A stretch of DNA of 64,000 nucleotides, taken from the IMG/VR virus record IMGVR_UViG_3300025789_001553, positions 1 through 64,000 of that record. One strand, 5' to 3'. Under the pieces are notes generated by a model, which saw only the letters and a list, made by a program, of their open reading frames with translations, had not been told where the DNA came from and did not search any database. Below are positions 6,117 to 48,931 of this stretch, one piece after another (position 1 is the stretch's first letter; each line of letters opens with the position of its first letter). A program made the position numbers and the translations under genes. This DNA comes from a virus.

Positions 6117-6125
6117 TATAAATAT
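6117..6125 (+). promoter_or_regulatory. T4-type late promoter TATAAATAT
   Basis: A perfect TATAAATA followed by T ends 5 nt before the lysozyme ATG at 6131. With T4 spacing (box at about -13 to -6) transcription would begin at or next to the start codon. Confidence 0.7.
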
Positions 6126-8160: not shown

Positions 8161-8611
8161 TATTGTTTATAATAACACCGTTTTCTTCTTGTGCAAGCTT
8201 TTTTAATAGTGCGTCAGGTGCTCTTCCAATACGGCAATTTATAATACCGTTGTAATATCCTTCTTTTAACAGTACATTGTTGTCAAACTGTATTTTAGCT
8301 TCGTAATATGCTAATTCAAACTTACTATCACAAAAACGCAATATTTCAAATTTAAACTTGTCTTTACCGATTTTTTTTATATCTTCATTAACATCATTAG
8401 ATGATGAAGTATAAGTCTTCCAATCTGTTTCTACGTCGAAGTGTCTTTTGTTTTTTCTTCCTTTAAGCGGTTTAAGTTTTTTAACGCTTCTAATCTGCTT
8501 TTTACCGAAATAGACCTTACCACTGACCACGTTTGTAATACGATAAATAAAACCGTAAGGCAGAATATTGTTGTTGAAAGCTTCATTTGTTGTCCAGTGG
8601 CCTAAATCCAT
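8114..8611 (-). CDS. GIY-YIG nuclease (stand-alone homing-type endonuclease)
   Basis: The 165-residue protein carries a GIY-YIG motif near its N-terminus: YGFIYRITNVVSGKVYFGKK at about residues 19-38 (FIY ... YFG). A Lys/Arg-rich stretch follows (RSVKKLKPLKGRKNKRH), then DKFKFEILRFCDSKFELAYYEAKIQF, which is typical of the second half of Seg-type or Hef-like GIY-YIG domains. Such free-standing endonucleases are common in T4-like genomes and promote their own spread. No intron is seen near it. The C-terminal tail after about residue 130 has no match I can name. Confidence 0.78.
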   Translation of the reverse strand: MDLGHWTTNEAFNNNILPYGFIYRITNVVSGKVYFGKKQIRSVKKLKPLKGRKNKRHFDVETDWKTYTSSSNDVNEDIKKIGKDKFKFEILRFCDSKFELAYYEAKIQFDNNVLLKEGYYNGIINCRIGRAPDALLKKLAQEENGVIINNNAISPDRSSLDSSRL

Positions 8612-8624
8612 TTACTTTGACTTA

Positions 8625-8900
8625 TTACAAACCTGGCGGAGTTCTACGGATAACCTTAAATTTGGATTTAAAACCTGGATTATTTTTAGGAGCTTTAAAT
8701 TTAGATTTTTTCTTCTTTGTTTTTTCCGGAGCACCAAATAGATTGCGAGCATCGCCTGGTGCATATATTTTATCACTACTTTGACCTATAGGTACACCAG
8801 CAGCTGCACTTGTGCTTCCGATTCCTGCAGCTGCAGTAGTACCTGCTGCCGCTCCCATATCTTCTAAGATTTTCTGTATTTTTTTATCAAATTTTTTCAC
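8625..8900 (-). CDS. Small Ala/Gly-rich basic protein, capsid-targeting-like N-terminus
   Basis: The frame starts with GTG at 8898-8900. Its N-terminus MKKFDKKIQKILEDMG is amphipathic and ends in ILE-D at residue 13, like a prohead protease site. An Ala/Gly/Thr-rich linker follows (about residues 17-40) and a strongly basic C-terminus (KTKKKKSKFKAPKN ... KFKVIRRTPPGL). The small, basic, cleavable layout is what T4 internal proteins show; the assignment is inference. Confidence 0.55.
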   Translation of the reverse strand: MKKFDKKIQKILEDMGAAAGTTAAAGIGSTSAAAGVPIGQSSDKIYAPGDARNLFGAPEKTKKKKSKFKAPKNNPGFKSKFKVIRRTPPGL

Positions 8901-8943
8901 TGTTGATTATATTAAAGATTATATTATACTTATGTTGTTTATT

Positions 8944-9345
8944 ATGGACTTACCCGATTTAGATACACTATTTATTAACTACCAAACTGAAATTATACAA
9001 GATATACAGGTAGATGAATTGTCTCTTAAAGACAAAGCAATGTTAGTGCCCACTATCAAACATAAATGGGTAGCACGCATGATGCAACATAAAGCTCAAT
9101 TGCGTAAGCTTCAAGCTAAGAAAAAAGATCTTATTAAGAATACTGCTAATGCGAGTCCTGTTTCAATGAGTAAGACTGCATTAGAACAATTATCTCAAAA
9201 TAATCCTAATATAGTGCAATTGACTGAGTATATTGAAAAGTTAGAAGGTATTATTGAGTATCTTGAGAAGGTAGAAAAACTAACCAGCTCGTTAACGTAC
9301 GATTGTAAAAACGTAATAGATTTACAAAAGCTCGAAACGACCTAA
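8944..9345 (+). CDS. uvsY: UvsY-like recombination mediator
   Basis: The roughly 133-residue product starts MDLPDLDTLFINYQTEI and has a long helical basic segment, HKWVARMMQHKAQLRKLQAKKKD, like the KWL-K-----L---AQKK motif of T4 UvsY (137 residues), then a second helical part with EYIEKLEGIIEYLEKVEKL. UvsY loads UvsX on gp32-coated ssDNA. It lies directly before uvsW, as in T4 where the two are neighbours, with TAATG stop-start overlap. An in-frame ATG at 8932 exists, but the TATTATAC box at 8922-8929 is too close to it, so 8944 is preferred. Confidence 0.7.
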   Translation: MDLPDLDTLFINYQTEIIQDIQVDELSLKDKAMLVPTIKHKWVARMMQHKAQLRKLQAKKKDLIKNTANASPVSMSKTALEQLSQNNPNIVQLTEYIEKLEGIIEYLEKVEKLTSSLTYDCKNVIDLQKLETT

Positions 9346-10796
9346 TGGTAGTAGAACTTCAATACGACCCTAAACGCAAAGAAGTAAAGATTGTTTCGGA
9401 ATACCTTAACAATATTAAAGAACGTTTTAGTGTTAAAAACCCGGGGGCACGTTTTAATCGATATCAAAGATTTTTACCTCAGCGTATCTACGCTATAACT
9501 AATGCCGGTTATTGTGGTATAGGTTTAGTTCCGGAAATTGTAGATTACCTTAACTCTCAAACTATACCATTTGAAATTAAAGTTAATAAAGAATACAATG
9601 ATGTTTTACTTCAAACTCATATTCTCAATGACGGAACACATAAAACTTTAGACAGTGAATTTAAACTTAGAGATTACCAGGAGACAGCTGTTAATAAAGC
9701 ATTAGAAAGTGGTTATGGTGTTGTAGAGTTAGCTACTGGTGGTGGTAAAACATTAATTATCGCTAATTTAGTATATGCTGCATTACACAGTATCAAACTT
9801 ACTGAAAAAGTATTAATTGTAGTGCCAGATTTAGGTTTAGTGGCACAAACTTATAAAGACTTTATTTCATACAACTTTCCTATGGAGATAGTGAGTAAGT
9901 GGACAGGAGATACTGAGTTAGACTCTAATGCCCGTGTTATTATAGCTAATATGGGTATTTTACAAAGTAAGTCGTCGGATATTTCTTGGTTTAACAAAGT
10001 AGGTTTGTTAGTTGTAGATGAGTGTCATAAGCTACGTAGAGGTAATAAGGTATGTAAACTTATTGATAAAATACCCACACTAAGACGTATTGGTTTTACA
10101 GGTACATTACCAGAAAATGATATCGATAAATGGAATATTAATAATTTTATCGGGCCGGTTATATTTAAAAAAACTACAACCGAACTAAGAGAAGCAGCTG
10201 GTGGAGAGTATATTGCTAATGCTCAAGCTTTAGCCTTACATATTGAGTATGCAATGAAGCCAGATTATACTGCAGTAGCGGCAGCTCAAAGATACTTAAC
10301 TGAGTTAGATTTTATACACATAAACAAATTTCGTAACGAGGTTATTAAGAACATTATTGGTAAACTAAATAATAACAGCCTTATACTTGTGGACCATATT
10401 GCACACGGTGAAAATTTGTATAATACTTTATCAACCTTAACCGGTAAACAAGTGTACTTTATACAAGGTAGTGTTGAAGTTGAGGACCGTAAAAAGGTGC
10501 AAGAACTAATGGAACAGCATAACAATGTTGTATGTGTTGCTATAAGCAAAATTTTTTCTACTGGAATTTCTATAAAAAACATTCATTATATAGTGTTTGC
10601 TGCAGGCGGTAAGTCCAAGATCAAAACTTTACAGTCTATTGGTCGTGGTTTACGTGTACATGAAAATAAGGACATTCTTACTATCATTGACATTGTAGAT
10701 GAGCTTATCTATGGTGGTAAACACTATGACAAACGAAAAGAATTTTATGCCCTTGAACAAATCAAAATTACCGAAAAAACAATTACCGAAAGCTAA
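9345..10796 (+). CDS. uvsW: UvsW-like DNA/RNA helicase
   Basis: This superfamily 2 helicase remodels recombination intermediates and stalled forks and removes R-loops. It has 483 residues (T4 UvsW 503). Motifs in order: an N-terminal nucleic-acid binding region, Walker A ATGGGKT at about residues 130-136, DECH in LLVVDECHKL (near 225), the FTGTLPE motif III, and motif VI SIGRGLRVHENKD near residue 430. It overlaps the preceding uvsY by 1 nt. The next gene begins within its 3' end. Confidence 0.9.
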   Translation: MVVELQYDPKRKEVKIVSEYLNNIKERFSVKNPGARFNRYQRFLPQRIYAITNAGYCGIGLVPEIVDYLNSQTIPFEIKVNKEYNDVLLQTHILNDGTHKTLDSEFKLRDYQETAVNKALESGYGVVELATGGGKTLIIANLVYAALHSIKLTEKVLIVVPDLGLVAQTYKDFISYNFPMEIVSKWTGDTELDSNARVIIANMGILQSKSSDISWFNKVGLLVVDECHKLRRGNKVCKLIDKIPTLRRIGFTGTLPENDIDKWNINNFIGPVIFKKTTTELREAAGGEYIANAQALALHIEYAMKPDYTAVAAAQRYLTELDFIHINKFRNEVIKNIIGKLNNNSLILVDHIAHGENLYNTLSTLTGKQVYFIQGSVEVEDRKKVQELMEQHNNVVCVAISKIFSTGISIKNIHYIVFAAGGKSKIKTLQSIGRGLRVHENKDILTIIDIVDELIYGGKHYDKRKEFYALEQIKITEKTITES

Positions 10797-11259
10797 AGCA
10801 CCACCTAAGCCTAAAAAGCCATTAAGTGAGTCTGCTAAAGCTAAAAAAGTATATTATGTGAGCCCAGCTGATTTTACAGCTGAGTTACGCAAATACTATG
10901 AAACCAATATCATTACCGATGATTTAGCAATGATGATTAAAAACATTGCTTATGGGCTTGCACATGCTTCAAACTTTATCAATTATACCTTTAAAGAAGA
11001 CGCTATTGGTGATTCTTTAATTAATATGTTCAATGCATTAAAAGATAAGAAATATAATTTTGATAAAGGTAGTAATCCATTCTCTTATTTTAATTCAATT
11101 TCGTTTAATTGCTGGCGTTCTCGTATTAAAAAAGAAAAACGCATGAGAGACACATTAGCGGCATATCAAGAAGAAGTGTATAGTATTATCGGGCCTCAGG
11201 TAGGTGTTGATGATCCGGTTAATCCCGCTAAACGTAATAATAATAATGACAATAACTAA
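10726..11259 (+). CDS. 55: Late-transcription sigma factor, T4 gp55-like
   Basis: gp55 is a minimal sigma that directs host RNA polymerase to late TATAAATA promoters. The region YETNIITDDLAMMIKNIAYGLAHASNF, then EDAIGDSLINMFNALKDKKYNFD and NPFSYFNSISFNCWRSRIKKEKR, matches the sigma-2-like core of gp55. The tail does not show the Ser-Leu-Asp-Phe-Leu clamp-binding end of T4 gp55: it finishes PAKRNNNNDNN. Start choice is uncertain (10726 or 10747, both inside uvsW). The stop overlaps the gp47 start by 14 nt. The late-type boxes in this window are its expected targets. Confidence 0.85.
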   Translation: MTNEKNFMPLNKSKLPKKQLPKAKAPPKPKKPLSESAKAKKVYYVSPADFTAELRKYYETNIITDDLAMMIKNIAYGLAHASNFINYTFKEDAIGDSLINMFNALKDKKYNFDKGSNPFSYFNSISFNCWRSRIKKEKRMRDTLAAYQEEVYSIIGPQVGVDDPVNPAKRNNNNDNN

Positions 11260-12301
11260 TTTAAGAATCGGTATATTTTCTGATCCGCACTACGGTGTTC
11301 ACCGTAATAGTGAAACATGGCACAAGATTGCTTTGGAGCACGCTAAGTGGGCTGCTGAGCAGTTTAAACAACAAGGCATAAAAGATATACTAATACCTGG
11401 AGACATATTTCATGATCGTAATGACATTGCTGTTAACACTCTTCACGTGGTTACTGACATTTTTGATGTATTGCGTGATTTTAACATCATTGTTACCGTG
11501 GGTAATCACGATGCTTACTACCGTGATAATTCTTCAGTTAATTCCGTATCCATACTTCGTGGCTGGAGTAATATTACTGTTATTGATAAGCTTACGGTCG
11601 AAACGCTCCAAGGAAAGAAAATAGCATTCTGTCCATGGGGTCAAGATATTAACGAAGTACCTAAATGTGATCTAATTGTAGGTCATTTTGAAGTTAATAG
11701 CTTTAAAATGAACTCTTATAAAGTATGTACTAACGGGCTTAAGACTTCTGATTTAACTGATAGAGCACCTTTAACTATTACAGGTCACTTTCACCATAGA
11801 GAAGAACGCAAATACAAAGATGGTACTATTCTTTATGTTGGGTGCCCGTATCAACAGGATTGGGGTGATTATGGTACTACTAAAGGTTTATACATTTTAG
11901 ATTTAAAAGACTTAAGTTACGAGTTTATTGTTAATAACATATCACCACGCTATAACAAGATTAAATACTCTGAAATAGCTAATGGTGTATATACAGCTGA
12001 ATCTTTAAAAGGCTTTATACGTAACAATATAGTAAAATTTTACATAGATAAACAACTTACACCTGAAGTAGTAGATAATATTGTTAGAAAGATTGCTTCA
12101 ATTAAACCTGTCGAGCTTACTTTAGAATACGATTATTCAGAACTATCTAAGCTTAATGTAGAAGAAGCTAATACCAAGGATTTTAGTATTAGTGTTGAAA
12201 ACTCTATATCAGAATTCATTGATTTATTAGATGTTAATCATAAGGATAAGGTAAAGAGTTACGTAACAGATTTATACCATAGAGCATTAACAATAACATG
12301 A
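11246..12301 (+). CDS. 47: Recombination endonuclease subunit gp47 (Mre11/SbcD-like)
   Basis: This calcineurin-like nuclease forms the gp46/gp47 complex that resects DNA ends. Motifs: GIFSDPHYG near the start, LIPGDIFHDRNDI, VGNHDAYYRD, then a late GHF and TGHFHHRE metal-site motif. From ATG 11246 the product is 351 residues (T4 gp47: 339). In T4 the partner gene 46 follows almost at once; here seven genes, six of them glycosyltransferases, or about 4.3 kb, come between. Confidence 0.92.
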   Translation: MTITNLRIGIFSDPHYGVHRNSETWHKIALEHAKWAAEQFKQQGIKDILIPGDIFHDRNDIAVNTLHVVTDIFDVLRDFNIIVTVGNHDAYYRDNSSVNSVSILRGWSNITVIDKLTVETLQGKKIAFCPWGQDINEVPKCDLIVGHFEVNSFKMNSYKVCTNGLKTSDLTDRAPLTITGHFHHREERKYKDGTILYVGCPYQQDWGDYGTTKGLYILDLKDLSYEFIVNNISPRYNKIKYSEIANGVYTAESLKGFIRNNIVKFYIDKQLTPEVVDNIVRKIASIKPVELTLEYDYSELSKLNVEEANTKDFSISVENSISEFIDLLDVNHKDKVKSYVTDLYHRALTIT

Positions 12302-13095
12302 AAATAGGAGCAGCAGTAATAGCATGTGATAGATTGGAATACACTAAACAGTGTGTTGCAAGTATACTTGCGAATAAAGGCCCGTTAACTGATATTATTT
12401 TAATTAATGATGGTATTAAAATACCAGATGGTGCATTACCTGATGGTATTGAAATAATGAACAATAGACCGCCATATCAATCAGTTGGGAGAGCTAAAAA
12501 TAGAGCTATGCAGGTGTTAGTCAATAGAGAATGTGAACATATATTTCTTGTTGAAAATGATATTTTAATTCAAACACCTGATGTTTGGCAAAAATATATA
12601 GATACTGCTAATGGTACAGGTATACGTCATTTAAATTTCGGTTATCATGGACCAGCCAACAGAACACCAGATTATAGTAAACCAAATCCGAGGTATATTG
12701 TAGAATACCCAAATAATATAAAAGTTGCACTTAATTTTCATTGTGTTGGAGCGTTTTCGTATTTTCATCGTCAATTTATGACAGATGTTGGTTATCATGA
12801 TACATTTTTTCAAAATGCATGGGAACACGTAGAGCTGTGTCAAAGAGCAATTAAGAAAAACTATTTGCCTGCATTTTGGTGGTTTCCAGATGTAGAAGGT
12901 AGTGATGAATTACTTAAAGAAATACCAGGCTCTATACAAAACAGTTCTATTACACATACCGAAAAATGGACTGAAAATATGTATAAAGGTGCTGATCATT
13001 ACAGAAAGATACACGGTGTATCAGCTGTAGAAAACCCTGATACCGGTCTTTCTGTAGTACTACAACGCTTAAAAGAAATTTATAAATGCAAGTAA
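12298..13095 (+). CDS. GT-A glycosyltransferase (GT2-like)
   Basis: The 265-residue product has an N-terminal strand-helix MKIGAAVIACDRLEYTKQC with ILINDGIKIPDG, the nucleotide-sugar site of GT2-type enzymes. A DxD-like motif is in HIFLVENDILI (END), with later catalytic-region residues in FQNAWEHVELCQRA. It is the first gene of the sugar island between gp47 and gp46, overlapping gp47 by 4 nt (ATGA). The donor and acceptor are unknown. Confidence 0.78.
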   Translation: MKIGAAVIACDRLEYTKQCVASILANKGPLTDIILINDGIKIPDGALPDGIEIMNNRPPYQSVGRAKNRAMQVLVNRECEHIFLVENDILIQTPDVWQKYIDTANGTGIRHLNFGYHGPANRTPDYSKPNPRYIVEYPNNIKVALNFHCVGAFSYFHRQFMTDVGYHDTFFQNAWEHVELCQRAIKKNYLPAFWWFPDVEGSDELLKEIPGSIQNSSITHTEKWTENMYKGADHYRKIHGVSAVENPDTGLSVVLQRLKEIYKCK

Positions 13096-13874
13096 CACAT
13101 TTAGGTATAACTAACGTAAAGCGTAGTGGTTATGGGTTTGGTAATCAATTATTTTTAATTGCAAGTACGATAGGTATTGCTATCAGCAATAATTTAAAGT
13201 ATGGTTTTGCAGAATGGAGTAATAATCGTTACTTTAACGAGCAGTTACCGGGTTTAGCGCCAGGAACAGGTAATATTGTAAAAGAACAGAGCTTTGATTA
13301 TAACCCGGTAGTGTTGCCAAAAAATACATTTACATACCTTGAAGGTTATTTTCAAAGTGAAAAATACTTCAGTTCTCCTGAAGCAAAAAACACAATACGC
13401 AATTTCTTTACATTTAAAAATGAGTATATACAACCAATAAAAGACTCTTTAAATGGTATAACCAATACATGCTCTATACATGTACGTCGCGGAGACTATT
13501 TAAAATACCCTGATATACATGTACAGCAACCTGAAACCTATTGGTATAACGCTCAACTTAAAGTTGAAAGCTTAACCACTGTTAACACTTATATAGTAAT
13601 GTCTGATGACATAAATTGGTGTAAAGAAAATAAACAACTGTTTACTAAAACAGGTAAAAAGGTATTATTTATGCAAGGTAGAAACGACATGGATGATTTT
13701 GTTATGATGTCTTTGTGTAGCAACAATATAATAACTAATTCCTCCTTTTCATGGTGGGCAGCTTGGTTAAACACAAATAGAGATAAAGTTGTTGTTATGC
13801 CCAAACAGTGGTTTGGTATTAACGGGCCATCAGATGGTAAAGATTTGCAAGCAGAGGGGTGGATAAAAGTATGA
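13086..13874 (+). CDS. Family 11 glycosyltransferase (alpha-1,2-fucosyltransferase type)
   Basis: GT11 signature motifs are clear: GFGNQLFLIAST near the N-terminus, SIHVRRGDYLKYP at about residues 136-148 (the HxRRGDY GDP-fucose motif), YIVMSDDINWCKEN, and TNSSFSWWAAWLN near the C-terminus. GT11 enzymes transfer fucose to galactose in alpha-1,2 linkage. It overlaps its neighbours on both sides (10 and 4 nt), showing a tight operon. A second GT11 gene is on the other strand at 43484, so the two may act on related glycans. Confidence 0.88.
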   Translation: MQVTHLGITNVKRSGYGFGNQLFLIASTIGIAISNNLKYGFAEWSNNRYFNEQLPGLAPGTGNIVKEQSFDYNPVVLPKNTFTYLEGYFQSEKYFSSPEAKNTIRNFFTFKNEYIQPIKDSLNGITNTCSIHVRRGDYLKYPDIHVQQPETYWYNAQLKVESLTTVNTYIVMSDDINWCKENKQLFTKTGKKVLFMQGRNDMDDFVMMSLCSNNIITNSSFSWWAAWLNTNRDKVVVMPKQWFGINGPSDGKDLQAEGWIKV

Positions 13875-35972: not shown

Positions 35973-36249
35973 TACAAATAAAGTATCACTTTACGAATTT
36001 AGCCGTTGGGCTGCTCTAATGGAAGCTGTAAATATTATAGCCGATAAATGCGAAGATAGGGGCATTGATTTTAATAGCCAAGAAGGCATGAAATATATTA
36101 AGCCATTAGATATTCAAGACTACGTTAATATACGTACTGATGCGTTAATGACTAAAATTAAAACAGCACGTACAATCGAAAAGAACCTTAATAATATCAA
36201 ATGCCTACAAATAGAAAAACAATTAAAACACTTGGAAGTTGTAGGGTAG
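35959..36249 (+). CDS. Unknown 96-residue helical protein
   Basis: This protein is not recognised. It is helical and charged (LYEFSRWAALMEAVNIIADKCEDRG; TKIKTARTIEKNLNNIKCLQIEKQLKHLE). It overlaps its upstream neighbour by 14 nt and the clpP-like gene by 49 nt. The C-terminal Leu/Lys/Glu pattern suggests a coiled coil. Confidence 0.45.
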   Translation: METNNTNKVSLYEFSRWAALMEAVNIIADKCEDRGIDFNSQEGMKYIKPLDIQDYVNIRTDALMTKIKTARTIEKNLNNIKCLQIEKQLKHLEVVG

Positions 36250-36764
36250 TACGTCTCTCAGGTGAGATTACTGAAGAGCTGGCTAATAAGATTATTGACC
36301 AGCTTATCAAGTATGACAAAAAAAGCAATAAAGACATTTTATTGCTTATTGACTCCCCTGGTGGTGATATAGATGCAACGCTTTCAATATACCAAATTAT
36401 ACAGTTATTAAGATGTAATGTAGCAACTTTAGCATTATCTAATGCTGCCTCTGCTGCTGCAGTACTCTTAGCGTGTGGAAAATTAGGTAAACGTATGGTA
36501 ATGGAGCACAGTATTGTTATGCTACATGATATTAGTCAAGCAATGACAGAAGACTATCATAGAGTGTTAGAGAACGAATTAATATCGTTGCGTCTTTCTA
36601 AAGATATATTAAATACTATTTTACATAAACAAAATGTTAAAAAGCCTTTAGATTTGCTAAAACCGGAAGCAACCTATATGCTTGGTAAACAAGCTGTTGA
36701 GCGTGGCTTAGCAGACTATGTTATAAAAGACTTTAATGAACTTTACAATATAACCGTTATATGA
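36201..36764 (+). CDS. clpP: ClpP-like protease subunit lacking the usual catalytic Asp
   Basis: The 187-residue product has a ClpP fold: LLLIDSPGGDIDATLSIY near 48-64, the Ser nucleophile S84 in NAASAAAVLLACG, and H109 in EHSIVMLHD. The third residue of the triad, Asp in most ClpP (ERDRFLS), is aligned with Ala here (KPEATYM; A157, with E156 next to it). It either uses another acid or is partly inactive. There is no ClpX/ClpA in the window, so it would use host partners. A phage tmRNA lies 2.4 kb away. Confidence 0.85.
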   Translation: MPTNRKTIKTLGSCRVVRLSGEITEELANKIIDQLIKYDKKSNKDILLLIDSPGGDIDATLSIYQIIQLLRCNVATLALSNAASAAAVLLACGKLGKRMVMEHSIVMLHDISQAMTEDYHRVLENELISLRLSKDILNTILHKQNVKKPLDLLKPEATYMLGKQAVERGLADYVIKDFNELYNITVI

Positions 36765-40298: not shown

Positions 40299-40961
40299 AT
40301 GGATCCAGCATCTTTAAAACAACAAGCACCGTTTGAACATTATGAAATATTTGACTTAAACATTTATGCATTATCGCGAGAAGTTATTGAAGGATATAGC
40401 GTGTTAGATCTGGGCGGTCATTATGGTTTATTTGCTAATGCTTGCAGTATGTGTAACCCTAAGAAAATTATTAGTGTAGAAGCTAACCATAATAATTTTA
40501 AAAAGTATTTAGATAATACTAAAGAATTACCTAATGTAAGGTGTATTAATGCAGCAGTTACCTCTAAACCGAACAAGATATTAACTATAAGCAATGAAAG
40601 CGGTAGCTCGATTGTAGGTAAAGGAGAACAGTTAGTTGCTTCTGTTACTCTTGAATCGTTATTAGAGTTATTTCAACCAGATGAAAAATTACTACTAAAG
40701 ATGGATATTGAAGGATGTGAGTATGAAATATTTTATAAAACACACCCTGACGTGTTTAAGAGATTTGATATGATTAAGTTAGAAGCTCACAACTTTAACC
40801 CTGATACTAAAGGAGATGAAGCAACTAAACTTAAAATGTATATTGAAGCATTAGGATTTCATGACACCGTAAATTTTCATGTTTTTTCTCCTGAATATGA
40901 AGACAAGTACAACGGGTTAAAAGTAGCGTGGTCTTACAATTTTGTTAAAAATAATTTATGA
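40299..40961 (+). CDS. FkbM-family methyltransferase
   Basis: The 220-residue product is a SAM-dependent methyltransferase. VLDLGGHYGLFANACS near residue 36 is the SAM motif I; IISVEANHNNFKKYL and LLLKMDIEGCEYEIFYKTHP near 145 are the FkbM signature. Such enzymes often methylate sugars, which would fit the glycosyltransferases of this phage. ATG 40299 is used in preference to the TTG at 40293. The next gene overlaps by 4 nt. Confidence 0.85.
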   Translation: MDPASLKQQAPFEHYEIFDLNIYALSREVIEGYSVLDLGGHYGLFANACSMCNPKKIISVEANHNNFKKYLDNTKELPNVRCINAAVTSKPNKILTISNESGSSIVGKGEQLVASVTLESLLELFQPDEKLLLKMDIEGCEYEIFYKTHPDVFKRFDMIKLEAHNFNPDTKGDEATKLKMYIEALGFHDTVNFHVFSPEYEDKYNGLKVAWSYNFVKNNL

Positions 40962-41593
40962 GCAAATCAACATCAATAGATATTAACTACCTGTCATATG
41001 CATGTGACAAGCAAGGCACGTGTGCATGGTCATTAAGTGCAGGTAGTTCAGATATAGTACAGGTACCTGCACCTACTGATAACAGTACTGTGTTTTTGCC
41101 GTCTAATCCTACATCTTTTGCAAGTATACTTAAACTTGCAGATAATGCAATTATTAATCTTTCTGGTTTAGTGGTAGATCAAGCAAATGAAAATGCAGTA
41201 GATGCAAATAATAAAGTTTCAGCTACACTTGAAGGAGTGTTTGGTAATTCTACACCTGGTATCGGTAATCAAATTTTTAGCGTAAAAGGTAGTAGTAGTG
41301 TCAGTATTAGAGGTACGTTAAAAGGAGCGGGTAACCGATTAAAAGCTGATGTACTTGTAGATAACTGGTCAGATCAAGATTACGGGCCAAGCACAGTCGA
41401 CTTAACACAAGCTAAACACGAAACAGGTAGAAAGATAAACGTAGTGTACCGTATCGGTTCAAGTAAGATAATAGGGAATTGCAATAAATTACTGTTACCT
41501 TCATTTGGTTTGACATTTTATTTTTATATCAAATTAATTGTTCGTAAAGTGATGAGTATCAAGCAGGGACAGAAGGGACCAAGCTGGCTTTAA
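40958..41593 (+). CDS. Unknown 211-residue protein
   Basis: No family is recognised. It has many short beta-prone segments (FLPSNPTSFASILKLADNAIINLSGLVV; SVSIRGTLKGAGNRLKADVLVDNWSDQDYGPSTVDLTQ), suggesting a beta-rich or beta-helical fold, and then a hydrophobic, basic C-terminus (LTFYFYIKLIVRKVMSI). It is coupled to the FkbM gene. A virion or surface-related role is possible; nothing confirms it. Confidence 0.5.
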   Translation: MSKSTSIDINYLSYACDKQGTCAWSLSAGSSDIVQVPAPTDNSTVFLPSNPTSFASILKLADNAIINLSGLVVDQANENAVDANNKVSATLEGVFGNSTPGIGNQIFSVKGSSSVSIRGTLKGAGNRLKADVLVDNWSDQDYGPSTVDLTQAKHETGRKINVVYRIGSSKIIGNCNKLLLPSFGLTFYFYIKLIVRKVMSIKQGQKGPSWL

Positions 41594-41646: not shown

Positions 41647-41655
41647 TATAAATAT
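41647..41655 (+). promoter_or_regulatory. T4-type late promoter TATAAATAT
   Basis: A perfect TATAAATA plus T ends 5 nt before the ATG at 41661. It is preceded by a TTGATTATAATA stretch that recurs at about 25240. Start-site spacing predicts an almost leaderless mRNA. Confidence 0.7.
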
Positions 41656-41660
41656 AGCGT

Positions 41661-42428
41661 ATGAAGAAACTATTAACATTCCTCGCATTAGTATCATTAA
41701 CCGTAGCAGCTGTTGCTCAAACTGCAACAGTACTATCACCTGTTAAAGGTGTTAGCGTAAATGCTGGTTTTGATTCTAAGCTTATTGAACAAGGCGCAGT
41801 AACTGGCAACGATTATATCACTGCTGGTGTTGGTCTTGATGTATATAGCGTTGACTTAGCTGTTGAAACGTTTAGCCGTTATAATGGTTTAACGAAGTAC
41901 AGTACCGCTACAGTAGCTGGTAAATCAGTTACAACTGCAAGCACAGATGCTTCCGGTTTAAAGCGTACTTACTTAACAGCAGGTTATGTTTTTACATCAA
42001 ATCTTGCTGACCTTACATTAGGTGCACAGCTCCGCCATGCTCAAGGTACAGAAACCTTAGTTGGTGGTTTATCCAATGACACATTACCATTCGTTAAATT
42101 AAATGGTAAGCTTTTTGGTGGTGCTCTATTGTGGGACGGTATCGCTCTTGATGACACTAAGAACCGTAGCAACAACTACGAAGCAAATCTTCGCCTACCA
42201 TTAGGTGTTGGTTACGGCTTAAAAGTTGTTCCTGCAGTAGGTCTTGGTTTCAACGATCCAGGCGCAGCTACAATTGCAGCTCTTAAAGCAGACAAAAAGT
42301 ATGCATCGGCTGGTATCGGTCTTGCATTCAAGGGCTTAGAAGCTAACCTATTCGCACAACGTGGCGATGTTACAAGCTCAGCAACACAAGTTACTGGTTA
42401 TACAGTAGGTTATACCTACAAGTTCTAA
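41661..42428 (+). CDS. Secreted outer-membrane beta-barrel protein (porin-like)
   Basis: A Sec signal peptide MKKLLTFLALVSLTVAAVAQ ends in AVAQ-TAT, then a long series of alternating beta strands with Gly/Asn/Asp turns (YITAGVGLDVYSVDLAVETFSRY ... RTYLTAGYVFTS ... ASAGIGLAFKGLEANLFAQ) and a C-terminal aromatic end VGYTYKF, the usual BAM recognition signal. It would sit in the host outer membrane. It has its own late promoter and terminator. It may alter the host surface late in infection (e.g. superinfection exclusion), but this is inference. Confidence 0.75.
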   Translation: MKKLLTFLALVSLTVAAVAQTATVLSPVKGVSVNAGFDSKLIEQGAVTGNDYITAGVGLDVYSVDLAVETFSRYNGLTKYSTATVAGKSVTTASTDASGLKRTYLTAGYVFTSNLADLTLGAQLRHAQGTETLVGGLSNDTLPFVKLNGKLFGGALLWDGIALDDTKNRSNNYEANLRLPLGVGYGLKVVPAVGLGFNDPGAATIAALKADKKYASAGIGLAFKGLEANLFAQRGDVTSSATQVTGYTVGYTYKF

Positions 42429-42452
42429 TAAAACTTAGATATTAATCATTTA

Positions 42453-42484
42453 AAAACCTCTCATTTCGGTGAGAGGTTTTTTTT
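42453..42484 (+). terminator. Terminator, also able to act leftward
   Basis: CCTCTCA 42457-42463 pairs with TGAGAGG 42470-42476 with loop TTTCGG, flanked by A-run and T-run. It ends the outer-membrane protein transcript; on the other strand it overlaps the end of the convergent gene stopping at 42461. Confidence 0.9.
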
Positions 42485-42685
42485 ATGTTCAGAAATATGA
42501 AATTGCATTGCTCTATTGAGCTTATGTAAAAACTTATCTGGTGCAATACCAGCCTTTTCTTGCAATATTAGCTCTTCTTTCAGAGCTTTCAAAAAACTCT
42601 TAGACAGATTAAAATCTCGAGGATAAAAAATCCTTTTTTCCTGTCTAATCATACCGTAGCTTTCCATTAGTTCTTGAAATTTCAT
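42461..42685 (-). CDS. Small basic protein with T4-like capsid-targeting N-terminus
   Basis: From the ATG at 42683-42685 the 74-residue product starts MKFQELMESYGMIRQEKR. The first nine residues resemble a T4 internal-protein targeting peptide (MKTYQEFIAE type) with LME as a possible prohead protease site. The body is Lys/Arg/Glu-rich and helical (LSKSFLKALKEELILQEKAG). A perfect TATAAATA lies 13 nt before the start. An upstream start at 42748 is unlikely. Confidence 0.55.
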   Translation of the reverse strand: MKFQELMESYGMIRQEKRIFYPRDFNLSKSFLKALKEELILQEKAGIAPDKFLHKLNRAMQFHISEHKKNLSPK

Positions 42686-42797: not shown

Positions 42798-43295
42798 ATG
42801 AGTAAAGAAGAATACGTTAAATTACAAGCTGTTATTGCAGCTTTACAAAAAACTGTAGAAGATCAAGAAAAGATCGATGAGATTATTGAATTATTATCCG
42901 ATAATACGGTAGCTGTTGATGAAACTGCTACACCTGAACAAGCTTTAGATGAAGCTATTAACAATAACGAGGAAAATGATGGTTCAGATGAGCCTAAAGT
43001 AAAGAAACAATACGTAATGCTTGTTTCTGACACGACTGGTATTATTGATAGAGATCTTACCGGTTGGGTACTTCAAATGCCTGAAGATGAAGACGTGAGA
43101 GACGTAGTAGATTGCATTAAAAAAGGAGCTTATAATTTTAATGCATCTAAGAAGGGTCAAAAATACCCTGTTACCTCTATCGGACAAGCAATTGCTAACG
43201 TTGGTAACAAGTTTTTTAAGCCTTATAACGTGAGTATTAAGACTAAAGAACCTATTCTCATCGTTACTACTAATAACGTTTTACCTCGAGGATAA
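42798..43295 (+). CDS. Unknown 165-residue protein
   Basis: This protein is not recognised. It starts with a helix (MSKEEYVKLQAVIAALQKTVEDQEKIDEIIELL), then an acidic linker (DEAINNNEENDGSDE), followed by a compact domain: QYVMLVSDTTGIIDRDLTGWVLQMPEDEDVRDVVDCI and KYPVTSIGQAIANVGNKFFKP. It precedes the gene at 43298 by 2 nt and shares its transcript. The conserved-looking C-terminal domain may be structural, but I have no evidence. Confidence 0.5.
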   Translation: MSKEEYVKLQAVIAALQKTVEDQEKIDEIIELLSDNTVAVDETATPEQALDEAINNNEENDGSDEPKVKKQYVMLVSDTTGIIDRDLTGWVLQMPEDEDVRDVVDCIKKGAYNFNASKKGQKYPVTSIGQAIANVGNKFFKPYNVSIKTKEPILIVTTNNVLPRG

Positions 43296-43297
43296 AT

Positions 43298-43495
43298 ATG
43301 TCAGGAAAAGGCTCAAAACCACGTCCTTTTTCGGTTTCTCAAGATACATTTGGAGAAAATTGGGACAATATCTTTAAAAAGAAGCAGCCTGATCACGATA
43401 AACATATGGCTGCTACTGATTGGTCCCAAATGTTAGGTGAATTACCGGAAGATTACAATAAAACCAAGAAAAAATTAAAAAAACTACCTGGGTAA
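43298..43495 (+). CDS. Unknown 65-residue protein
   Basis: A short charged protein (MSGKGSKPRPFSVSQDTFGENWDNIFKK ... TDWSQMLGELPEDYNKTKKKLKKLPG) with no family match. GAGGATAAATATG before its start is one of the few sites with a possible Shine-Dalgarno (AGGA) and at the same time holds a GATAAATA box. It overlaps the convergent GT11 gene by 12 nt. Confidence 0.45.
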   Translation: MSGKGSKPRPFSVSQDTFGENWDNIFKKKQPDHDKHMAATDWSQMLGELPEDYNKTKKKLKKLPG

Positions 43496-44326
43496 TATGA
43501 ATCCAGTCGGGTCATAAACCGCTGGACATATTTTCCACCCTTCACAGTACACATCTTTTGGGTCATATTCCCTTAAGATGTCAGGACCAAACCAAACCCC
43601 AGGAGCAATAACTGTTTTGTTGGGGTTTTTTGATAGATAAGCACCCCACCAGGTGAAAGTTGAGTTAGAAATTACAAAATTTTGACATAATGACAAGAAC
43701 CAAAGAGCTTTATACGGTTCATATTCTACAAAAACTGTGTTTGGAAACTTAATATTCTCTCTACACCATGGAATATCATCGCTTACTACAAAAATTGTAT
43801 CAACTTTTGGTAGCATTTGGTATGCTTTCTGCAAATAACCAGCAGTAACTACTGGATGACGTGTGGGAAATGTTAAAAAATCACCTCTACGTACATTAAT
43901 TACAGCATTTGTACCGTTTACTAATTGAGGATATGTGCGTGTAGCTTCTTCAATAAACTCTTGAGTAGGCCCGAACAACTGTTTTACATTTTCTGAATGA
44001 TCTTTAAAGAATTTTTCACTTTCAAAGTACCCTCTAAACACGGTTGGTAGTGTGTCATGTGGTTTATATTCAGTATAATGATATGTTGAATTTATCGTAT
44101 GCACTGCAGGTGTAGCATCTGGTGCTTTAGGTATAATAAAATCTAATTTGCGATGTACAGTGTCGTAGTAGTCACTTGTAGATGTTTCTGCATAAGGTAA
44201 AACTAACTGTCTATTATGTCTTAATGACTGTGCATATGCATTAGCAATTTGAAACATTTGATTACCTAACCGACCTATCAATGTACAGGTAATATAGTTT
44301 GAAGATAAATTTAAGTTTTCGTTCAT
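43484..44326 (-). CDS. Family 11 glycosyltransferase (alpha-1,2-fucosyltransferase type)
   Basis: The 280-residue product shows IGRLGNQMFQIANAYAQSLRHN at the start, AVINVRRGDFLTFP near residue 137 (HxRRGDY-type motif, here NVRRGDF), IFVVSDDIPWCRENI, and ISNSTFTWWGAYLS near the C-terminus. These are GT11 hallmarks. It differs from the GT11 at 13086 in many positions, so it is a separate acquisition or old duplicate. It is the last gene of the leftward sugar island. Confidence 0.88.
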   Translation of the reverse strand: MNENLNLSSNYITCTLIGRLGNQMFQIANAYAQSLRHNRQLVLPYAETSTSDYYDTVHRKLDFIIPKAPDATPAVHTINSTYHYTEYKPHDTLPTVFRGYFESEKFFKDHSENVKQLFGPTQEFIEEATRTYPQLVNGTNAVINVRRGDFLTFPTRHPVVTAGYLQKAYQMLPKVDTIFVVSDDIPWCRENIKFPNTVFVEYEPYKALWFLSLCQNFVISNSTFTWWGAYLSKNPNKTVIAPGVWFGPDILREYDPKDVYCEGWKICPAVYDPTGFILPR

Positions 44327-44333
44327 TGTATTA

Positions 44334-45008
44334 TTAAAATTTCTTAACTATTGGGGACTTTATAAAGTTTGTCTCCCAATGATCTGTGGTAGGCGCAAAA
44401 CCGTTTATATCTAAATCGCTTGGACTTTGTCTTTGTATTACCGATAACGGGTAAACCACGTATTTGTTGAGTTCGCCTCGCTCACCAAGCCATGTATCAA
44501 CAGGACAATGAAAATGTGGATCATACTGTAAGAACATTTTTAGTCCTTTTCTGTTAAACCCTGTAGCATGATTAGCTAATATATGCTCACACTTAAGTAA
44601 ATTTTCTGACACTTGTTGTACAGGATTATCAAACACATAGCAGCCTAAATAGATTGTATCCCAATCCGGAAAATTTTGTAATTGATCTAATGCATTCTCT
44701 ATATTCTTTAATGAATTAGCATTATAAAATTGTGCATCATCTTCAAGTATTAAAAATCGTTCATAACCTTCTTTTTCTGCTTTTTTAAATATATTTGCAA
44801 ATGTTTCACCACAATAATTGTGAACCATTCTCATGCCCTCTTCTGTAGTAGTATCTTTTACTATAGCTTTTGCATCTATACCAGGCACGCGCTCAAAAAA
44901 GCCTTGAAGGCCGGCATCTTTTACTTCCTTTTCAAATAAAGTTCTTCTATCTGCTCTACGATCAAGATTTATATAATAACCTTTTTGAAAAAATTCATTA
45001 ATTTTCAT
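44334..45008 (-). CDS. Family 25 glycosyltransferase, tandem copy 3
   Basis: The 224-residue product begins MKINEFFQKGYYINLDRRADRR, the GT25 N-terminal pattern (INLDRRxDR), with ERFLILEDDAQFYN (EDD metal site) near residue 85 and DWDTIYLGCYVFD further on. GT25 enzymes include LPS galactosyl/glucosyltransferases. Three copies lie head to tail with 1-nt gaps and share the first residues almost exactly. It is about 10 residues shorter than its neighbours at the site region TTEEGMRMVH. Confidence 0.85.
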   Translation of the reverse strand: MKINEFFQKGYYINLDRRADRRTLFEKEVKDAGLQGFFERVPGIDAKAIVKDTTTEEGMRMVHNYCGETFANIFKKAEKEGYERFLILEDDAQFYNANSLKNIENALDQLQNFPDWDTIYLGCYVFDNPVQQVSENLLKCEHILANHATGFNRKGLKMFLQYDPHFHCPVDTWLGERGELNKYVVYPLSVIQRQSPSDLDINGFAPTTDHWETNFIKSPIVKKF

Positions 45009-45009
45009 A

Positions 45010-45705
45010 TTAAAACATTTTTACTAAACGAGGTTCAAGTAACTTGTATGCTTCTTCCCAGTGTGATAAGCCAGGCGCTCTACCAAACGCATCGATGTCA
45101 CTCTCCCCGTCTTTTTGCACTACTGCCATCGGATAAACAAAATACTTGTTCATAAATTTTTGCTGACTCAACCACCCATCAAATATTGTTTGTAAAGTAT
45201 GATCGTATCTTTTTAATAGTTTAGGTATAACCTTCTTGTTATAACCTATAGCGTGTGTTGTTAAGAGTATATCCGGTTTTAAAAGGTTTTCTGATACATG
45301 TTTTACTTTATCATCTACTACGTAACCACCGAAGTATACCATGTCCCAGTCTGGGAAATTTTGCAATTGATCCAATGCTTTTTCTACTATCTGTAAAGCT
45401 GGTTCAGAACCGTTATTATAAAATAGCATATCATCTTCACATATTAATACACGTTCATGTGGTTGTTCGTTAATCTTTTTAAACAATTCGTATACCGTTT
45501 CACTAAATGCAGCACCTTTATGTACATGTGCTGGTTCATGCACGTACATTGGATACTCTCTTGTTAAGTAGTCAATACCTGCAAATCTTTCAAACCAACC
45601 GTCAAGGTTAATTTTTTTAGCTTCTTCTTCGAACCCCGCTCTACGCTCAGGACGACGATCAAGATTTATATAATAACCCTTTTGAAAAAATTCATTAATT
45701 TTCAT
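45010..45705 (-). CDS. Family 25 glycosyltransferase, tandem copy 2
   Basis: The 231-residue product starts MKINEFFQKGYYINLDRRPERR. The metal/nucleotide site is ERVLICEDDMLFYNNGS; the centre keeps FPDWDMVYFGGYVVD and HAIGYNKKVIPKLL, and the end has GESDIDAFGRAP. It is flanked by two paralogues, so it arose by tandem duplication. The 1-nt gap to the next copy implies translational reinitiation. Confidence 0.85.
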   Translation of the reverse strand: MKINEFFQKGYYINLDRRPERRAGFEEEAKKINLDGWFERFAGIDYLTREYPMYVHEPAHVHKGAAFSETVYELFKKINEQPHERVLICEDDMLFYNNGSEPALQIVEKALDQLQNFPDWDMVYFGGYVVDDKVKHVSENLLKPDILLTTHAIGYNKKVIPKLLKRYDHTLQTIFDGWLSQQKFMNKYFVYPMAVVQKDGESDIDAFGRAPGLSHWEEAYKLLEPRLVKMF

Positions 45706-45706
45706 A

Positions 45707-46390
45707 TTACGGTTTTATTATTTTAAATTTTGAATAGCAATCTAACCAATGCTTAATGTCCGGTGATTTACCGAAAGCATCAATATCGCTTTTACCTTCT
45801 CTTTGAGCTACTGCTAATGGATACACAATATACTTAATTATGTTCTTCCTGGCAGCTATCCACTCATCATATATACAATCATGTCCAGGTACATATTGTA
45901 ATAGTTTTTCAAATACTTTTTTATTATATCCAACTGCATGAGCAGTCAGTATATTATCTGCTTTAAGTAAATTTTCAGATACTTGTACACCGGGGCAATA
46001 TTTTAAATAACCACCAAAATATATCATGTCCCAATCAGGAAAATTTTGTAATTGATCTAATGCTTTTTCAACTAATTGTAAACCTGTTTCCTGTCCATCA
46101 TTATAAAATAATATGTCATCTTCGTATATTAAAACTCTTTCATAACCGCTTTCATTCGCTTTTTTGTAAGCATTATAAAAAGCTTCCCCACAAGCCATTC
46201 CTTTGTTTACATATGATGGTTGATTGATAGCATTAGGGTATTGACGGGTAGATACATCAATACCGGGTACACGTTCAAAAAAACCTTCAAGACCTATCTG
46301 TTTTACCTCTTGCTCAAATTGAGCTTTTCGATCTGTTCTGTAGTCTAAATTTATGTAATAACCTTTTTGAAAAAAATCATTAATTTTCAT
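45707..46390 (-). CDS. Family 25 glycosyltransferase, tandem copy 1
   Basis: The 227-residue product starts MKINDFFQKGYYINLDYRTDRK and keeps ERVLIYEDDILFYNDGQ, FPDWDMIYFGGYLK, HAVGYNKKVFEKLL and GKSDIDAFGKSP, the same motif order as its paralogues. Copies 1 and 2 are closer to each other than to copy 3 by eye. A terminator-like hairpin at 46416-46437 separates it from the upstream GT-B gene. Confidence 0.85.
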   Translation of the reverse strand: MKINDFFQKGYYINLDYRTDRKAQFEQEVKQIGLEGFFERVPGIDVSTRQYPNAINQPSYVNKGMACGEAFYNAYKKANESGYERVLIYEDDILFYNDGQETGLQLVEKALDQLQNFPDWDMIYFGGYLKYCPGVQVSENLLKADNILTAHAVGYNKKVFEKLLQYVPGHDCIYDEWIAARKNIIKYIVYPLAVAQREGKSDIDAFGKSPDIKHWLDCYSKFKIIKP

Positions 46391-46415
46391 TTAATATTTT
46401 ATTACAAAATTTTAT

Positions 46416-46437
46416 AAAAACCACGGCGACGGTTTTT
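46416..46437 (-). terminator. Terminator-like hairpin (leftward)
   Basis: Read leftward, AAAAACC pairs with GGTTTTT (7 bp, loop GTCGCCGT), ending in a T-run. It may end or attenuate transcription from the GT-B gene into the GT25 genes. Confidence 0.6.
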
Positions 46438-46442
46438 ACACA

Positions 46443-47624
46443 TTAAGATGTGAGTGAACCAATAAATTCAGCCCACATGTTGCCCACCTTAGCTGGGTTA
46501 AATTTATCTAAAATAAATTTTGTACCTTCAGCGCGTACTTTTTCTTTTAAATCTGGATTAGCTTCGAGGTAGTTTACTGCATCAATAATTTTTTTAGTAT
46601 TATTTTTAAATGCTCCTTCAGTATCTTTAGTTAAAGATTCTTTTTGTATAACATTAACATCTTTACCGTCAGGTAATTCAACCCACTTACAGAAACCTTC
46701 GAAATTTTCTGGTAATGCACCGAACGGGTAAGTTACGGGTATAGCGCCTAATGCAATTGCTTCAGCAACTACACATGAGAATGTGTCTTTATGCACATCC
46801 TGATAAGGTGTATATAAAGGATATATAAAATACTCACTTTCTGCTATATGTGTAAATAGTGTTTTTCTATCTACCCCATCATGCTTATAAAAGAATTCAT
46901 CCTGGTGAGGGTGCGTACATAATAGATAGTCAAAAGCGTGTAGTTCAACATCAGGCCAGTTTAATTCTCTTGCAACTTGTATAGCTACATCACCACCACG
47001 CGCCCATGCTGCATGAAACACAATCTTATGCTTTTTTCTCTCTGGTTTACTATTTAGTACTTCGCTAACTACGTCATCCATTATCGGGTTAGGAATTAAT
47101 GTACTTAAAGTACCAGGATAACGAGTTTTAGCACTTGCTACAGTACCCTCATTCATTGACTTTTCCCACTCAGAAATATTAACAAACCCTAACTTTAAGT
47201 TATTGTCATTAGCATAATTAATAATTTCATCAATACCATATATCCATTGCATATGGTTCCAGTATATTAATGCTTTAGTAACTTTTATCGGTAGTTTTTT
47301 ATAATCATGAAACCAAAGACTACTAACTAACACGTCAAACTCTTTATTTTCAATATTAGTAAAGTCAATATCGGTATAGTATACACCTCTTACTTTTTTA
47401 CCTTGATTGAAGTGAATACCTTTTTCAGCGTACTCAGCTTCAAGTCCAGGTTCAAGCTTATCAGAAGTAACAACAACTTCATGACCTTGCAAAGCCAATT
47501 GCTCAGCAACTATGATGGTGCTTCCGTCTGTACCAGAACCACCACCGTTACCATAACGAAGAGTTTCTCCGTCTAAGTAGTTACTACGCCGACTGTTACC
47601 GATTAAGATGAATGCTATTCTCAT
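46443..47624 (-). CDS. GT-B glycosyltransferase (GT4-like)
   Basis: The 393-residue product has an N-terminal donor-domain motif MRIAFILIGNSRRSNYLDGETLRYGNGGGSGTDGSTIIVAEQL with a Gly-rich loop, then EVVVTSDKLEPGLEAEYAE, VLVSSLWFHDYKK, and a C-terminal half with HAAWARGGDVAIQVARE and KDTFSCVVAEAIALGAIPVTYPFGALPE (the E-x7-E donor loop). GT4-type enzymes transfer sugars from nucleotide donors. A TAAGTAT box lies 4 nt before its start, so it may be transcribed late. Confidence 0.82.
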   Translation of the reverse strand: MRIAFILIGNSRRSNYLDGETLRYGNGGGSGTDGSTIIVAEQLALQGHEVVVTSDKLEPGLEAEYAEKGIHFNQGKKVRGVYYTDIDFTNIENKEFDVLVSSLWFHDYKKLPIKVTKALIYWNHMQWIYGIDEIINYANDNNLKLGFVNISEWEKSMNEGTVASAKTRYPGTLSTLIPNPIMDDVVSEVLNSKPERKKHKIVFHAAWARGGDVAIQVARELNWPDVELHAFDYLLCTHPHQDEFFYKHDGVDRKTLFTHIAESEYFIYPLYTPYQDVHKDTFSCVVAEAIALGAIPVTYPFGALPENFEGFCKWVELPDGKDVNVIQKESLTKDTEGAFKNNTKKIIDAVNYLEANPDLKEKVRAEGTKFILDKFNPAKVGNMWAEFIGSLTS

Positions 47625-47628
47625 TTAT

Positions 47629-47635
47629 ATACTTA
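47629..47635 (-). promoter_or_regulatory. TAAGTAT box (leftward)
   Basis: Read leftward, TAAGTAT lies 4 nt before the ATG at 47624, overlapping the stop of the preceding gene. Confidence 0.4.
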
Positions 47636-48931
47636 TACTACCGGTGGTAATACCTTTTCGTAGCGATCACTCCAGCCTTTATCTTTACTGTGTGCATACA
47701 TAACAATTTTATATGGCTTATCTATGCTACGAAAACGTGCTAAGTGATCGGTTTTTGCAAAAGAAACATATTCTGGATCCTTTTCAGCAACAAAGTCGTG
47801 TCTGTATAGGTTTACACCACTTTGTGTTTCTATACCAAATGTAACGAAATCGATTACGTTCTCTTCTTTAAACTTTGCAAAGAAATCTGATTCCCAGTTG
47901 CAAGTAAACACCCGCTCTTTACTAATAAATTGTTCTTCATAGTTTGTAGGGTTTGGTGGTTCTTGTACTTTTAAAGTATAGTCTTGTATACGACAGTTTT
48001 TAAAATCAAAACCACCATATATTTCGTATTCTCGTAGTGTACGTACATTACCTAAACCGTACTTACCTAAATCAATACCATGCTCTTCTTGACCGAAGAT
48101 TTGACGTGTTTTATTACGTGCATATATATCTCTTTCCCCGGATGTTTTACCGGTATGTTTTTCAGTACCATGATCATCCCAGTGCTTTACGCGGTAGTTA
48201 CGTGTGTATTCGTGCCAAATGTATTGACGGTATGGACTAAAGAAATCATATCCCGAAGTCCAAGCTCTTACACTCATAGTGGTTTCTTCTGTATAACCAC
48301 CAAAATAAATGTCTGGATCATAAGATACTTCTTCAATAAATTTACCTTGCGCTAAAAAGAAATGACCACTAATTGTGCGAGCTTTAATAACTTTATTTCT
48401 TTGTTGATAGTCTCCAATGTAATATGGCATACTCATTAGTAGTTTATCACTACTAAACTCATACTGAGACATTAAACAAGGGCCGAAATCAGTGATAGGT
48501 TTATCCGGATTAAATGGTGTGCAATAAGTTGAAATAACTGGCTTCTTGCTCATTGTTAATGCTTGTGCGTAATCTTCTAACAACATTTTATCCCAATCTT
48601 GAGCAAAACGATGGTGAGAGTCTAACTGTAGTGTTAGTTCTTCACCGTCATATAATGAGTTGGTTAAATTACGTGCCCAACCTAAACCTTCACTTTCTGT
48701 ATAAGGTTTTTTAATCACTCTAAAGTTTTCCTTACCGTCATAGACACTTGTATCTTCATCCGGGCCGTACTGCCAACAGATACCAAAAGAGAATTGCGAC
48801 GGATCAGCAGCTTTCTCTAACATGTCAGTTATAGTAGGAACCAACTGAGGATCTCTATAAGCAGCAAATTGTACGAAAATACGCGGTTTGTTTTTCTTTT
48901 TTGTGGTGCGTGTAGTAGTCTTTTTAGCCAT
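47633..48931 (-). CDS. GT60-like N-acetylglucosaminyltransferase
   Basis: The 432-residue product has a basic N-terminus (KKTTTRTTKKKNKP), then RIFVQFAAYRDPQLVPTITDML near residue 18, and TESEGLGWARNLTNSLYDGEELTLQLDSHHRFAQDWD near 78-114 with the DSH metal motif. These match the family of Skp1-type GlcNAc transferases (GlcNAc, GT60). KARTISGHFFLAQGKF and FFSPYRQYIWHEYTRNYR follow. Bacterial and phage members exist; the acceptor is unknown. Confidence 0.82.
   Translation of the reverse strand: MAKKTTTRTTKKKNKPRIFVQFAAYRDPQLVPTITDMLEKAADPSQFSFGICWQYGPDEDTSVYDGKENFRVIKKPYTESEGLGWARNLTNSLYDGEELTLQLDSHHRFAQDWDKMLLEDYAQALTMSKKPVISTYCTPFNPDKPITDFGPCLMSQYEFSSDKLLMSMPYYIGDYQQRNKVIKARTISGHFFLAQGKFIEEVSYDPDIYFGGYTEETTMSVRAWTSGYDFFSPYRQYIWHEYTRNYRVKHWDDHGTEKHTGKTSGERDIYARNKTRQIFGQEEHGIDLGKYGLGNVRTLREYEIYGGFDFKNCRIQDYTLKVQEPPNPTNYEEQFISKERVFTCNWESDFFAKFKEENVIDFVTFGIETQSGVNLYRHDFVAEKDPEYVSFAKTDHLARFRSIDKPYKIVMYAHSKDKGWSDRYEKVLPPVV

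Follow-up and report, generated by a model that had tools for sequence, protein, structure and literature searches.

The DNA analyzed here (the window, bases 1–64,000 of an 82,476-base virus record) carries a gene whose product is almost certainly a phage-encoded, BAM-type outer-membrane β-barrel, predicted to reside in the outer membrane of cells. From its export signals, promoter and pattern of variation we infer an outer-membrane location, late timing and a receptor or exclusion role. The full reading that we favor, an exported porin-like barrel encoded by a late, one-gene core unit and remodeling the host surface against further phages, is tentative and is given slightly less than an even chance. 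Most known cases of phage-made barrels in the outer membrane of a host are lysogenic-conversion genes or bare annotations. Here, an unnamed barrel family appears core to widespread T4-like freshwater phages, as a self-contained promoter–gene–terminator unit.

Family matches of T4 type were found for DNA polymerase, a UvsW-like helicase, SbcC/SbcD, UvsY, a DnaB-like helicase, tail sheath and tail tube, and judged by this gene content the phage is T4-like. Its closest annotated polymerase relative is that of Kyanoviridae phage C48C1, with 32% identity. The features discussed below are collected in Table 1.

Table 1. Barrel gene, its signals, loops and neighbors, and related features (window coordinates)
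Feature	Position	Strand	Basis or remark
Second TATAAATA, at -14 before lysozyme-like gene 6131-6745	6117..6124	+	Sequence
gp55-like late sigma factor	10699..11259	+	phrog_234, E=3e-17
211-aa gene just upstream of barrel	40958..41593	+	In 10/21 compared loci (some duplicates)
Conserved promoter block before barrel start codon	41640..41660	+	Near-identical where members' further flanks differ
TATAAATA, exact T4 late-type -10 element, 14 nt before ATG	41647..41654	+	Sequence
Phage-encoded outer-membrane β-barrel gene, stop included	41661..42428	+	ORF, 255 aa, ATG start
Predicted signal peptide, residues 1-19, cleavage between VAAVA and QT	41661..41717	+	Sequence; N-terminal hydrophobic segment
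Predicted extracellular loop 2, residues 74-98, β-hairpin	41880..41954	+	Model; variability 0.52
Predicted extracellular loop 3, residues 128-138, highly variable	42042..42074	+	Variability 0.67
Conserved loop 5, residues 198-212, NDPGAATIAALK..., two short helices	42252..42296	+	Variability 0.24; model; alignment A3
C-terminal β-signal YTVGYTYKF, residues 247-255	42399..42425	+	Sequence
Intrinsic-terminator-like hairpin after barrel gene	42452..42481	+	13 pairs and T tail
c1, convergent 74-aa gene, constant downstream neighbor	42461..42685	-	Synteny
c2, 165-aa gene, next conserved neighbor	42798..43295	+	Synteny

Export signals and predicted fold

The second codon upstream of the barrel ATG is an in-frame stop, so that a longer reading frame is impossible and the start is fixed. 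The protein begins with MKKLLTFLALVSLTVAAVA followed by QT; the signal peptide was read from the sequence and its hydrophobic segment, without a dedicated predictor, and contains no lipobox cysteine. At the C-terminus, GYTVGYTYKF places F255, Y253, Y251, V249 and Y247 on alternating positions. F255 is nearly invariant, being present in >90% of an alignment of 29 natural relatives (A4). An earlier note, made from the letters of the window alone, had pointed to a signal peptide and to a C-terminal KF as a BAM-type signal, and both were borne out by the predicted cleavage and by the aromatic residue kept across A4.

A first AlphaFold2 model, built from 13 close relatives, had a pLDDT of 75 and a pTM of 0.68. 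With A4 as input these values were 85.3 and 0.77, and the five models agreed, all at 79–85. The A4-based model is a barrel of 12 membrane strands, counted by eye from its DSSP string (residues 28–43, 46–61, 64–73, 99–112, 116–127, 139–151, 156–165, 170–178, 187–198, 213–223, 226–234 and 244–254). The hairpin of loop 2 spans residues 77–96 and the short helices of loop 5 residues 200–211; the outward orientation of the loops is taken from this predicted model.

Comparison of the model with the PDB by VIA-align gave 296 chains at Z of at least 8, and the top rows were all outer-membrane barrels, including KdgM porin (Z 16.7), FapF (15.9), VhGalP (15.4), PcoB (15.0) and NalP (14.9). The KdgM match had an rmsd of 2.7–2.9 over 166 residues (166 of 170–171 aligned) and a Foldseek TM of 0.72–0.74, normalized to KdgM. 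Sequence identity to the nearest solved folds is only about 7–15%, so a common fold is indicated and kinship with KdgM porins is not implied. The barrel first suspected from strand alternation was thus recovered by structure prediction. Every testable feature of the protein fits the outer-membrane barrel class.

The view that the protein does not look like OmpT or a spanin also held. An omptin protease (10 strands, Asp-Asp/His-Asp site) is at odds with the 12 strands of the model and with the lack of an invariant histidine in the family, and a spanin-like identity was not indicated. The enzymatic barrels OMPLA and LpxR appear in the fold list and were rejected because their catalytic residues are not conserved; A4 holds no invariant His or Ser that would suit OMPLA, PagL or LpxR activity.

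Among known structures, the KdgM/NanC porins (PDB 4pr7, 4fqe, 2wjr, 8xua) are 12-stranded monomeric oligosaccharide porins. They share with the window protein the 12-strand barrel, a similar length and periplasmic ends (VIA Z 14.7–16.7), but identity is 8–13%, there is no Pfam match and the window barrel is phage-encoded; it therefore has the fold of this class and lacks sequence membership, and the monomeric state is a property known for the porins. FapF (PDB 5o65), a 12-strand amyloid secretion barrel, matches over 200 residues at the Z given above, whereas the window barrel is without the extra N-terminal domain and no Fap neighbors were seen. Among the best matches in viral models was E1A206, an outer membrane protein of the T4-like Aeromonas phage phiAS5 (Foldseek TM 0.50/0.56), although at 10% identity no sequence kinship is recognizable.

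Family scans agreed with this picture. Pfam, NCBIfam and PHROG scans of the barrel protein returned noise only and no covering family, as did Pfam and NCBIfam scans of 13 relatives, which gave no KdgM match; a profile search of PDB sequences found no KdgM-family match either. Two NCBIfam matches were rejected, LP_plasma because it spans only the signal peptide and T9SS_PorG because it lies far under its cut-off.

Promoter, terminator and timing

The window contains six copies of the octamer TATAAATA and shuffled sequences 16 on average, so that it is depleted if anything; by itself it is weak promoter evidence. It is nevertheless more than chance before the barrel gene, because 18 of the 24 distinct upstream regions in clade 1 keep it at -14 while flanks and coding sequence diverge, even among genes about 37–44% identical in protein with differing further flanks. 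In the remaining clade-1 regions, almost the same position is taken by TTAAATA, TATAAAATA or TATAAATT. Counts of TAAATA and TAAGTA near starts are inflated by the TAA stops of upstream genes. The barrel element is unaffected, since it lies within a 67-nt intergenic gap.

T4 late transcription starts about 13 bases after the first T of the -10 element. By this geometry, transcription of the barrel gene would start at about the base before the ATG (about -1) and its mRNA should be nearly leaderless. Downstream, a hairpin-like inverted repeat with a T run was also recognized by eye in relatives. The barrel would thus be transcribed from a one-gene unit of its own, bounded by a late-type promoter and a terminator and yielding a near-leaderless mRNA.

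The "perfect late promoter" of the earlier note was upheld in part. The element is an exact T4 consensus, it is conserved, and the phage encodes a gp55-like sigma factor, but the virion genes favor TAAGTAT. TAAGTA/TAAGTAT is overrepresented before virion-side genes (9 of 31 late genes, 0.24 expected), whereas TAAATA is enriched before late and early genes alike. TAAGTA(T) may represent a G-variant of T4's late promoter that leaves very short leaders. Since the virion genes prefer it, late timing is something that we infer for the barrel; judged by its promoter, late synthesis is likely. The TAAGTA/TAAGTAT motifs stand mostly 9–19 nt before the ATG and occur in 1 of 50 early genes, and the enriched genes lie on the minus strand (window 43400–64000 and the record up to 82476).

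Distribution and neighborhood

Relatives of the barrel were found in IMG/VR viral contigs, in scans that gave 6, then 21, then 57 loci. The last set holds 38 distinct full or partial proteins, and distinct relatives number about 40. Members of a near group share 37–100% identity with the window protein; in a far group, whose contigs reach 297 kb, the figure is 34–41%. A tblastn search of 50,697 phage records in GenBank found no barrel relative. Homology to host porins, proposed earlier as a check, was not seen by sequence when 84,980 genomes of bacteria and archaea were scanned twice with patterns; these scans detect fairly close relatives only, and a distant host porin may exist.

With c1 and c2 used as independent bait, the barrel turned up next to c1 wherever the sequence of a locus extended far enough. 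It therefore looks like a core gene of its T4-like freshwater phage clade, not an occasional extra. Apparent absences in L034, L037, L041, L048, L051, L052, L058, L074 and L077–L079 were discarded: these contigs end at or before the place of the gene, so none of the absences is informative. The barrel gene is under purifying selection, with dN/dS of about 0.1–0.35 (for example, dN 0.19 and dS 0.88 between L002 and L008).

Of the neighbors, c2 has a weak Pfam Sigma70_r1_1 match, below the cut-off, and the 211-aa upstream gene has no Pfam or PHROG match. One locus (L003) carries a tandem second barrel gene at 8859–9599, whose product shares 47–48% identity with that of the window; TATAAAATA precedes its ATG by almost the same distance, and the gene has a terminator-like repeat of its own. 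A repeat of 76–80 bases with 95–97% identity occurs within and between loci upstream of the barrel region (L002 7189–7264 and 5388–5463; L003 4297–4376). The window also encodes a ClpP-like protease (36201–36764; Pfam CLP_protease, E=1e-31).

Exchange of alleles and loops

Comparison of near-identical phages demonstrated that the barrel gene is swapped whole and alone. The base-by-base alignment of L002 with L008 covers 13,434 positions; of their differences, 196 fall within the 768 positions of the barrel gene and 26 within the remaining 12.7 kb. Phages that exchange the barrel gene alone are 99.8% identical. L055, from another sample, carries the L008 allele, with 1 difference from L008 inside the gene and 18 outside; against L002, it has 195 differing sites inside and 27 outside. 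L011 and L014 are 99.9% identical in the 1,500 bases downstream and 91% identical in the barrel gene.

An assembly artefact, in which short identical ends join the wrong alleles, would concern the exchange only and not the gene. Many relatives have identical 5' ends of about 40 nt, which would allow such joining. Nevertheless, we consider it very unlikely, as L008 and L055 share allele and background in different samples with the few differences given above, and neither L002 nor L008 has ambiguous bases.

Across the family, variability within the barrel proper peaks in loops 2 and 3 (0.52 and 0.67, compared with 0.52 for turn 4, 0.21–0.46 for the strands and 0.24 for loop 5). Between L011 and L014, loops 2 and 3 together differ in 20 of 35 codons and the remainder in 26 of 212 (p=2e-8). 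Two other pairs showed a weaker loop excess, with p of about 0.005 before correction for the pairs tried, and the remaining pairs showed no significant excess. The same long and short alleles of loop 2 occur in both subfamilies. Exchange of the predicted extracellular loops 2 and 3 was thus observed mainly in one pair and in the common loop-2 alleles. Conserved loop 5 is a possible pore-folding or functional loop.

Possible role of the barrel

In the mechanism that we favor, Sec would export the 12-stranded, porin-like protein and the host BAM machinery would assemble it into the outer membrane of the infected cell. The altered surface would then be bound or injected less well by further phage particles. 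These could be competitors or the phage's own progeny, and the variable outer loops would decide against which of them the barrel acts. Exchange aimed at the predicted outer loops points to surface recognition, and for this reason we prefer interference with superinfection or with receptors to a role as nutrient porin or lysis aid. Several observations argue against exclusion. No known exclusion protein is among the sequence relatives of the barrel, loop variation is common to all outer-membrane proteins and arises under relaxed constraint as well, and the strong loop excess is confined to one pair. Conserved loop 5 and the KdgM-like fold of the model would fit a channel equally well. The known exclusion factors of T4 type either work at the inner membrane or belong to the small lipoproteins.

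A porin for solute uptake (e.g. of an acidic oligosaccharide) that serves phage production, as an auxiliary metabolic gene, is somewhat unlikely. The best-matching folds, KdgM, NanC and VhGalP, are 12-strand monomeric porins, loop 5 with K40, K101, K188, E174 and N172, charged or polar residues conserved in the strands, could form a pore constriction, and core conservation is compatible with a metabolic need. Identity to these porins is nevertheless about 10%, there is no Pfam KdgM match and a fold match does not show function; moreover, with a late-type promoter the uptake of nutrients would come late, and a porin role alone does not explain the outer-loop exchange. That exchange is likewise unexpected of lysis proteins, and A4 has no conserved catalytic residues, which makes it distinctly unlikely that a late barrel destabilizes the outer membrane or aids virion release, replacing spanins or acting beside them, even though barrel and lysozyme-like gene at 6131 have TATAAATA at -14 in common. 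Variable outer loops and exchanged alleles would also suit a barrel that is bound by tail fibers and traps competitors, or carries receptors via membrane vesicles to other cells, as receptor re-supply or decoy. The gain from a decoy on a dying cell is doubtful, and we regard this as highly improbable.

Superinfection or receptor interference can be put in a narrower form. The barrel may act as an exclusion-specificity protein: infected cells would display it as a surface tag, core to the clade and subject to recombination, and its loop alleles would determine which phages are excluded; we consider this unlikely as it stands. If it were true, exchange of a single gene between otherwise identical phages would change their exclusion group. 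Whether lytic phages remodel the host outer membrane to exclude rivals is thus testable with one gene, and whether exclusion groups are set by loop alleles is a second question raised.

Barrels that phages add to the outer membrane of their host include Lom of lambda and the Lc/NmpC porin of PA-2 and lambdoid prophages; Lc alters the porin make-up and thereby phage sensitivity. Lom is of the 8-strand Ail/OmpX type and Lc/NmpC is a 16-strand trimeric porin; both are lysogenic-conversion genes of temperate phages. In contrast, the window barrel belongs to the apparent core genes of a T4-like phage, has 12 strands and shows no sequence link to them. The methylophage Melnitz encodes CsgG/CsgF pores (PMC9004378). 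Its CsgG is likewise an outer-membrane pore of a T4-like aquatic phage, but of another fold and family and oligomeric (PMC9004378). Searches of the literature turned up nothing close among phage-encoded outer-membrane barrels of tested function. Phage-encoded outer-membrane proteins are therefore a known kind; what is new is that the gene appears core to a T4-like clade, that its promoter keeps a fixed spacing and that alleles and loops are exchanged.

Translation signals, host and further genes

Shine-Dalgarno motifs precede 3 of 88 genes in the whole record, with 7.0 expected from shuffles, and 18 of 207 genes in relatives, with 17.3 expected. In the control T4-like phage C48C1, they precede 23 of 49 genes against 9.6 expected. 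Such a chance-level frequency is unusual for a T4-like phage and points to a host with SD-independent initiation such as Bacteroidota, whose genes naturally lack Shine-Dalgarno motifs (PMC6847099). Signal peptides ending in -AQ or -SQ suggested the same host. In Flavobacterium psychrophilum, about 5.5% of the mRNAs mapped are leaderless (PMC9723704). However, no enrichment was seen for TAnnTTTG, the promoter of Bacteroidota (8 occurrences, 6 in the reverse-strand control), and Bacteroidota are no more than our best guess for the host.

Other genes of the phage and its relatives drew attention. A cluster of glycosyltransferase-like genes lies amid structural genes on the minus strand (window 43484–48931), with one of GT11 type (Pfam Glyco_transf_11) and three tandem paralogs starting MKIN(E/D)FFQKGYYINLD. 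In L023, positions 7983–13391 (record 70682–76090) encode a tail-type protein of 1,802 aa consisting largely of SGYSG/SGISG/SGWSG repeats, and the next two genes of that locus have a similar, shorter SGYSG-type repeat pattern.
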